64,000 nt of DNA, taken from positions 1 through 64,000 of the forward strand of contig CAIUHP010000076.1 of NCBI GenBank assembly GCA_903899015.1. The letters are read 5' to 3'. Positions 19,228-20,717 of this stretch are shown here, piece by piece. This DNA comes from an uncultured Armatimonadota bacterium. Lineage in GTDB: Bacteria > Armatimonadota > Fimbriimonadia > Fimbriimonadales > Fimbriimonadaceae. Below the pieces are notes generated by a model. The model ran no database searches, had not been told where the DNA came from, and saw nothing but the letters and a program-made list of their open reading frames with translations. How positions within the stretch are numbered: position 1 is the first letter of the stretch; each line of letters starts with the position of its first letter. Position numbers and translations under genes: made by a program.

Positions 19228-19562
19228 TATAGAACCGAGTCAGTTGATGCCCAAGTGCATCGCTGAGGGAACTTACAAGGTTGAGTAAAGTCAGAAAGTC
19301 GAGTCATTAAGGGACTTCACGTTTTCTAAATTAAGGGTTATTGGAATCGCTCGTTACGAGAAAATGGCGGCGATTGTAGGAATTTACGCGACGGTTCGAA
19401 GCAGTTTTCGTTTTAAGTTTTGCCTCAGCTTGGCCCGTTTCAAGACCGAGTTGAAGCTAGTACTTTTGCGAAGAGCACGTTATTTGCAGACGGGAATGTG
19501 CCGATAACAAATGCAAGTCAACTTGATGAATTAAGCGCGATCAAGCCGGAGAAACACATTCA
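19228..19562. other. Non-coding stretch of about 335 bases between divergent genes
   Basis: Lies between the divergent ATL-like gene and the histidine kinase. No credible open frame, tRNA or repeat is visible. It presumably holds promoters for both, but no convincing -35/-10 pair could be fixed by eye. Confidence 0.4.
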
Positions 19563-20717
19563 TTGAATCAAACAACGTTTTTTGCTTCAGGACCTCGAGA
19601 TACCACGGCAACAGTTGTCAACGAGGCGATCATGGTTTCTCGGGCTCAGATCGTGCAGCAACTCCTTGACGCGATTCCCGATGTCGCTCTCATCCTCAAT
19701 GACAAGCGGCAAATCGTGGCGGCTAATGAATATTGCCTAAAGGTCTTAGGCGTCCAATCGATCGCTGAGATTATCGGGAAGCGAACGGGGGAAGCAGTCA
19801 ATTGCCTGCACGCGTTTGAGGGTCCAATGGGATGTGGAACGTCAGAAGCTTGCCGAGATTGCGGAGCCGCTCATGCAATCCTGCGGTGCCTGAATAGCCA
19901 AGATAACGTGCAACGTGAATGTCACATCACAGCCATTCACGAGGGCCACAGTTCGTCGATGGAATTCTTAGCGAAAGCCAATTTCGTCCAGATTGGACCT
20001 TATCCCATGGTCTTGCTCGTCCTACGGGATATTAGTGCGGAGAAGAGGCGTCAGACGTTGGAAAGACTGTTTTTTCACGATGTCCTCAACACCGTTGGCG
20101 GAATGGCAGGGTTGGCAGACCTTATGGTCATCGGACCTTCTGATCGCGCTGGGGAATACGCGCAAACCATTCAACGACTTGCTTCTAACGTTGCGGAAGA
20201 AGTTTCAGCCTATCGGAATTTACTTCAAGCCGAAGCCGGCACGTTGAAACTAGACGTTAGTCGCGTGTCCATTTCAGAACTCTTTCAAGAGGTCATCGAA
20301 AGTTTGGCTCATCACCCCGTCAGTGCGGGCCGAAATTTGATGGTTGAGAGCCGACCGTCAGATTCCATTGAAACGGACCGGGTTCTCTTAAGGCGTGTTG
20401 TGAGCAACTTAGTTAAGAACGCAGTGGAAGCGGCTCCAAAGGGATCGGTCATTACTTTGTCGTCTCAGGTCACTGAAAATGGCCTGCTCATTTGCGTCAA
20501 CAATCCAGGCACGATGTCTGAGTCGGTTCAGCACCAGCTCTTTACTCGATCATTTACGACGAGTGGAGAACGCGGGAGGGGACTCGGCACCTATAGCATC
20601 AAACTTTTGACGGAGCGATACCTTAACGGTCACGTGACCTTCGAAAGTTCAGAAGGTACGGGGACGATCTTTAAAATTGAACTGGCGCCACTTGATCCAG
20701 ATTCACCCAAAATTTGA
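19563..20717 (+). CDS. PAS-domain sensor histidine kinase with cysteine cluster
   Basis: 384 residues, starting with TTG 19563 (an ATG at 19632 is an alternative). Cytoplasmic, with no membrane helix. The N-terminal PAS (about 30-160) contains Cys81, Cys91, Cys97 and Cys100 within CLHAFEGPMGCGTSEACRDC, able to bind a metal, FeS or heme-like ligand. Then come phospho-acceptor His172 (FFHDVLNTVGG), the ATP domain with N-box Asn282/Asn286 (NLVKNAVEAA), a G1 box lacking Asp (CVNNPGTM) and a G2 box GRGLGTYS. The divergent G1 is seen in a known subgroup of kinases. No response regulator adjoins. A likely redox or metal sensor; ligand unproven. Confidence 0.75.
   Translation: MNQTTFFASGPRDTTATVVNEAIMVSRAQIVQQLLDAIPDVALILNDKRQIVAANEYCLKVLGVQSIAEIIGKRTGEAVNCLHAFEGPMGCGTSEACRDCGAAHAILRCLNSQDNVQRECHITAIHEGHSSSMEFLAKANFVQIGPYPMVLLVLRDISAEKRRQTLERLFFHDVLNTVGGMAGLADLMVIGPSDRAGEYAQTIQRLASNVAEEVSAYRNLLQAEAGTLKLDVSRVSISELFQEVIESLAHHPVSAGRNLMVESRPSDSIETDRVLLRRVVSNLVKNAVEAAPKGSVITLSSQVTENGLLICVNNPGTMSESVQHQLFTRSFTTSGERGRGLGTYSIKLLTERYLNGHVTFESSEGTGTIFKIELAPLDPDSPKI

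Follow-up and report, generated by a model that had tools for sequence, protein, structure and literature searches.

The window analyzed here, a 64,000-nucleotide stretch of contig CAIUHP010000076.1 from an uncultured Armatimonadota bacterium, encodes a PAS histidine kinase that we assign to a family of its own, as yet without a name. On balance, Cys81, Cys91, Cys97, and Cys100 in the PAS domain of this soluble orphan kinase would appear to bind a cofactor that responds to redox state or gases, with an Fe–S cluster as the likeliest candidate. The four-cysteine PAS domain, referred to below as Cys-PAS, constitutes a widespread sensor module that is apparently undescribed. The gene and its parts are as follows, in window coordinates and all on the + strand:

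19563..20717, +: whole gene, encoding a 384-residue soluble Cys-PAS histidine kinase (open reading frame and domain matches)
19548..19551, +: putative ribosome-binding site GGAG, 11 bases before the TTG (read in the sequence)
19572..19598, +: N-terminal conserved block, residues 4–12, consensus T-x-F-A-P-x-E-R (alignment columns)
19650..20042, +: PAS domain, residues 30–160 (weak PAS_8 match, AlphaFold model, and structural matches)
19803..19862, +: cysteine loop C81-x9-C91-x5-C97-x2-C100 between PAS helices E and F (80/80 rows; block pLDDT ~92)
19920..19922, +: Cys120, a fifth cysteine, on PAS strand G (71/80 rows)
20034..20237, +: two-helix dimerization and phosphotransfer part, residues 158–225 (AlphaFold helices 158–190 and 193–225; structural match to HK853)
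20076..20078, +: His172, the predicted phosphorylated histidine, within ERLFFHDVLN (79/80 rows)
20238..20690, +: catalytic ATP-binding domain, HATPase_c (PF02518, 9.8e-17, above cut-off)
20406..20432, +: N box NLVKNAVEA, N282..N286..E289 (N282 and N286 each in 80/80 rows)
20496..20516, +: G1 box VNNPGTM (V312–M318), with Asn314 replacing Asp (Asn in 77/80 rows)
20574..20597, +: G2 box GRGLGTYS (G340, G342, and Y344 each in 80/80 rows)

The open reading frame begins at a TTG codon, with no earlier in-frame start codon, and the kinase is present in one copy in the genome (4.94 Mb in 119 contigs). HATPase_c scores 61.8 bits in the window protein, against a Pfam cut-off of 26.4, and is found in all 80 family members at E 0.001; HATPase_c_5 scores 35.3 (cut-off 22) and matches 68 of the 80 members at the same threshold. 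The PAS_8 match (20.3 bits, 5e-4) falls just under the Pfam cut-off of 21.8. Because the protein lacks a long hydrophobic stretch (highest 19-residue Kyte–Doolittle mean, 1.3), the kinase is considered soluble, and the reading frame, the HATPase_c domain, the PAS model, and the hydropathy together bear out the initial annotation of a soluble PAS histidine kinase at 19563–20717. Within the N-terminal block, T5, F7, and R12 are found in 64, 59, and 71 of 81 rows, two of which are misread. No NCBIfam model came near its own cut-off for the window protein; the NCBIfam AgrC model matches 34 of the 80 members at 1e-5, matches that do not amount to membership. A defense-protein search with PADLOC gave no match, and a tblastn search of plasmids with the window protein found none at 1e-10.

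The AlphaFold model has a mean pLDDT of 90.6 for the whole protein and 95.9 for the PAS domain alone, and places the cysteine tetrad in a loop that includes a short helix. In VIA-align comparisons, the nearest solved PAS structure is that of NtrB (3b33; Z 12.8, rmsd 2.3, 106 residues aligned), with MmoS and LOV domains within about 1 Z unit of it. For the kinase half, a structural match to HK853 was obtained (Z 22.4, rmsd 3.1, 222 aligned). No Fe–S PAS domain occurs among the titles of the VIA-align PAS matches, a result that excludes nothing. When the cysteine loop was compared with the PDB by sequence, the best match, to ribosomal protein uS14/S29 (E 0.82), was at chance level, and no Fe–S or zinc protein match was obtained. 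Adrenodoxin-type [2Fe-2S] ferredoxins contain a C-x5-C-x2-C loop comparable to C91..C97..C100; this likeness was dropped, since the fourth cysteine lies on the other side and the PDB search with the loop lent it no support.

The case for the tetrad as a functional unit is built on its conservation. Relatives were collected with two sequence patterns outside the cysteine loop, LNDKRQIVA and ERLFFHDVL, and 80 of 145 confirmed loci were kept; the alignment comprises the window protein and 79 loci, with a mean pairwise identity of 41%. Cys81, Cys91, Cys97, and Cys100 are each present in 80/80 rows, among just 17 invariant columns, and the one locus omitted from the alignment (L024) also carries the tetrad. 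The remaining cysteines serve as an internal control: C58 and C109 are each kept in 8 of 80 rows, and cysteine is not among the six commonest residues in the column of C311. Spacing is similarly constrained, with nine residues between C81 and C91 in 68 rows, eight in 9, and ten in 3, followed in every row by gaps of five and two. Gly101, directly after C100, is nearly invariant. Four of the eight cysteines of the protein lie within 20 residues, which random placement reproduced in 2% of 200,000 trials; conservation is the strong evidence for the tetrad, and such clustering is weak taken alone.

The initial annotation had placed these four cysteines and His83 in one PAS loop, with the motif C81-L-H83-x7-C91-G92-x4-C97-x2-C100, which is exact. 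Its view of the cysteines as a functional unit is supported by their invariance and withstood the search for their loss in orthologues, but His83 was given too much weight, as it is kept in only 58/80 rows and is otherwise Asn, Arg, Tyr, or Val. A fifth conserved cysteine, C120 on strand G, had been missed; the 9 rows that lack it still have the tetrad.

The tetrad is closely coupled to the kinase half. A search with residues 158–375 retrieved 51 loci (L128–L178), all with the tetrad and partly overlapping the first 80-locus set; the first spacing in L157 is seven residues. Among 291 Armatimonadota genomes, the kinase-half search found 21 places in 20 genomes, which, compared by eye, are the 21 strongest places found with a PAS-only query. 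Across 120 genomes of the Fundidesulfovibrio order, a Cys-PAS lies directly N-terminal to 70 of the 71 kinase halves that match at about 1e-38 or better, the sole exception (L179) being a weaker match in a different kinase with an ordinary PAS domain. Because searches with the kinase half alone recover tetrad-bearing loci, this kinase type and the tetrad must be passed on as a pair.

The distribution of the family is broad and locally patchy. According to record titles, the 80 loci cover at least 14 phyla, with no phylum given for three loci, and relatives are present in the isolates Fundidesulfovibrio agrisoli, Mariniphaga sediminis, and Maribellus maritimus. In the Fundidesulfovibrio order, which comprises sulfate reducers, Cys-PAS is present in 58 of 120 genomes, at one to six places each, and 27 of 97 Cys-PAS places lie outside the tight kinase set. 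The earlier description of a small type is therefore wrong, whereas "little-described" holds as far as the literature was searched: topic terms and phrases returned just neighboring subjects or nothing, a weak negative given that most subscription journals lie outside the coverage, and motif strings returned no paper, also a weak negative, as such strings are seldom printed in running text. The kinase occurs in 5 of 61 genomes and in 4 of 20 genomes of the same genus, counting the window's own in both, and given this patchiness it does not belong to the core functions here. In a quick tree, the window protein groups with Fimbriimonas-type relatives, and phyla are mixed elsewhere. One genome of the same genus (G004) has two copies (C37 and C54), 56% and 39% identical to the window protein, the second of which is without the FFHDVLN sequence that bears the phospho-histidine.

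Beyond these kinases, weaker Armatimonadota matches of the PAS-only search revealed Cys-PAS domains with four cysteines in other architectures, namely in GGDEF–EAL proteins (L114 and L118), in hybrid kinases with HisKA and receiver domains (L119, L121, and L122), and in small proteins (L115, L116, L120, and L123). Most of these proteins do not keep the glycine that follows the fourth cysteine. Found with ordinary hybrid kinases, in small proteins, and in GGDEF–EAL proteins alike, Cys-PAS is a mobile module, which, given the GGDEF–EAL proteins, also feeds cyclic-di-GMP signaling. A bolder reading, to which we give slightly less than even weight, holds that Cys-PAS is a third, unnamed Fe–S sensor design, distinct from NreB and AirS and used across many phyla in orphan kinases, hybrid kinases, and cyclic-di-GMP enzymes, and that its orphan version, without a neighboring regulator, delivers redox or gas signals of a general kind to an existing phosphorelay. 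If the Fe–S site is real, PAS sensors that carry a cofactor could be recognized by a simple sequence motif in many bacteria that have received little study, and redox or gas sensing would be linked to both phosphorelays and cyclic-di-GMP control. Among the small proteins, L115 (1315–2076), L116 (minus strand), and L123 (1333–1902) have no enzymatic output; a second cysteine motif, CAWC...CPDC, is located at the C terminus of L115 and L116, and a similar one is N-terminal in L123.

The closest known system is reminiscent of the window kinase in style rather than in detail. NreB has the cysteine spacing C-x2-C-x11-C-x2-C and a HisKA_3-type dimerization domain, whereas the spacing here is C-x(8-10)-C-x5-C-x2-C in 80/80 rows, which leaves the NreB spacing unmatched, and HisKA_3 gave no match in the window protein (E 0.1) or in the 80 members (E 0.001). 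NreB is also encoded in an operon with its own regulator, in contrast to the orphan Cys-PAS kinases. Because spacing, dimerization domain, and gene context all differ, the window kinase is not an NreB member, although the available text of two sources describes Staphylococcus NreB as similarly soluble, combining a kinase with an N-terminal PAS domain whose four cysteines hold a [4Fe-4S] cluster that is lost in oxygen (PMC4601167, PMC8774646). The [2Fe-2S] kinase AirS of Staphylococcus aureus likewise has a four-cysteine cluster in its N-terminal part, but its spacing, given as C-x7-C-x-C-x17-C in the available part of PMC4601167, is unlike the motif here, and it has a partner, AirR. In WalK of S. 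aureus, a metal in the cytoplasmic PAS domain sets kinase activity, with His271, Asp274, His364, and Glu368 as zinc ligands (PMC6624279, in the portion available); WalK is a membrane kinase with a partner, WalR, and in the window kinase, where a metal is a candidate only, the conserved candidate site consists of four cysteines, with no His/Asp/His/Glu site.

What occupies the tetrad is a matter of graded probability, because its conservation fits zinc or thiol chemistry equally. An Fe–S cluster is the occupant we moderately favor; zinc or another single metal and metal-free chemistry of thiols, disulfides, or sulfur species are each a minor though appreciable prospect, and anything else is very improbable. 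Weighing against the favored reading, the loop has no sequence match among solved Fe–S proteins, the genes around the kinase carry no redox or metal signal, and the family is patchily distributed. A zinc or other single-metal site, structural or zinc-sensing, would be in keeping with the CG..C..CG arrangement, which recalls metal knuckles, and ribosomal protein uS14/S29, the sole weak PDB match of the loop (E 0.82, chance level), binds zinc. WalK offers a precedent for zinc regulation of a cytoplasmic PAS kinase, although the ligands listed in the available text of PMC6624279 include no cysteines. The general loss of the glycine following the last cysteine in the other Cys-PAS architectures also speaks against zinc, and a purely structural zinc alone would leave the tie of the tetrad to signaling outputs unexplained; overall, we regard a single-metal site as rather unlikely.

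A metal-free switch, in which disulfides or persulfides formed on sulfane sulfur gate the kinase, is similarly doubtful. Thiol redox switching does occur in PAS kinases, as Cys180 and Cys241 of ArcB show in the available part of the source, and the response to sulfide described for an NreB homologue of Bacillus (PMC9918477, in the available text) may be another instance. Cys120 could provide a pairing partner, but it is absent in 9/80 rows, and four invariant, rigidly spaced cysteines exceed what a two-cysteine switch needs. The initial annotation had also listed heme among the possible ligands. Such a sensor, working through His83 or the cysteines, would parallel the PAS domains of FixL and DosP, which bind heme through a histidine of helix F (PMC10468136, as far as its available text goes). 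Because His83 is poorly conserved, heme is unlikely, and it was rejected as exceedingly improbable; the sequence C97-R-D-C100-G provides no CxxCH motif, and the four cysteines would be left unexplained.

The initial annotation also laid weight on the G1 box, which it correctly read as NNPG instead of DxGxG: V312-N-N-P-G-T-M318 stands in place of the usual VxDxGxG. Taken with DivL, a kinase in which the phospho-histidine is replaced and the top single-sequence PDB match, this box might point to a pseudokinase that has lost ATP binding for want of the aspartate. The family generally lacks the aspartate, with Asn at the position in 77/80 rows, but the N, F, and G2 boxes are intact and His172 is retained in 79/80. 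Moreover, in profile comparisons the nearest kinase halves of solved structure include ThkA (TM1359; 1.6e-23), CusS (4e-18), and AgrC (5.1e-12), and the printed profile alignments show Asn in G1 of both ThkA (VWNSG) and CusS (VENPG); the ThkA structure was solved with ADP and Mg. The divergent G1 box is a family trait with precedent and thus neither sets this kinase apart nor indicates that it is inactive, so that the emphasis placed on it is unsupported. With catalytic residues retained and Asn in G1 known elsewhere, the pseudokinase was rejected as highly improbable, and the ATP domain is expected to be active despite the substitution. The catalytic domains of ThkA, CusS, and AgrC are similar to the kinase half here, whereas the sensor parts differ, and we know of no four-cysteine PAS domain in these three proteins.

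Based on the preferred reading of an Fe–S cluster, a simple model would have the tetrad, invariant and predicted to lie in the loop that precedes PAS helix F, form a single cofactor site. When the cluster is gained, lost, or altered in redox state, in response to O2, NO, or the redox or iron state of the cell, helix F would move together with the PAS sheet, as other PAS kinases are understood to work. The conserved linker D156-I-S would then carry the signal to the dimerization helices and so set how far the ATP domain autophosphorylates His172. Finally, the phosphate would be transferred to a receiver whose gene lies in another part of the genome.

Receiver domains (PF00072) occupy 56 places in this genome, none of which is on the 78-kb contig CAIUHP010000076.1, in agreement with the earlier statement that the kinase is an orphan with no adjacent response regulator. 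Among 58 nearest same-strand genes within 150 bases of the relatives, no receiver family was found among the families matched by two or more, and at most 1 of the 58 close neighbors is an adjacent receiver. When 571 neighboring open reading frames of the 80 loci were clustered, no gene was near most loci; a receiver/kinase cluster reaches 20 of the 80, mostly at a distance. The lack of a neighboring regulator is, judged from gene order, a family trait. At individual loci, a receiver gene lies 7 bases upstream (L075), a hybrid kinase with a receiver is nearby (L015, identified through the same gene in L010), or the kinase itself is fused to receiver and Hpt domains (L041), a fusion that argues for phosphotransfer.

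The neighboring genes of the kinase gave no redox or metal signal. In five loci from Ignavibacteria, Bacteroidetes, and Cloacimonadota (L021, L026, L030, L034, and L036), a gene of 150–158 residues, whose start resembles a signal peptide, lies upstream and ends no more than about 40 bases from the kinase. Three Armatimonadota loci (L073, L083, and L093) share a conserved gene with a probable methyltransferase domain, which begins 38–40 bases downstream of the kinase.
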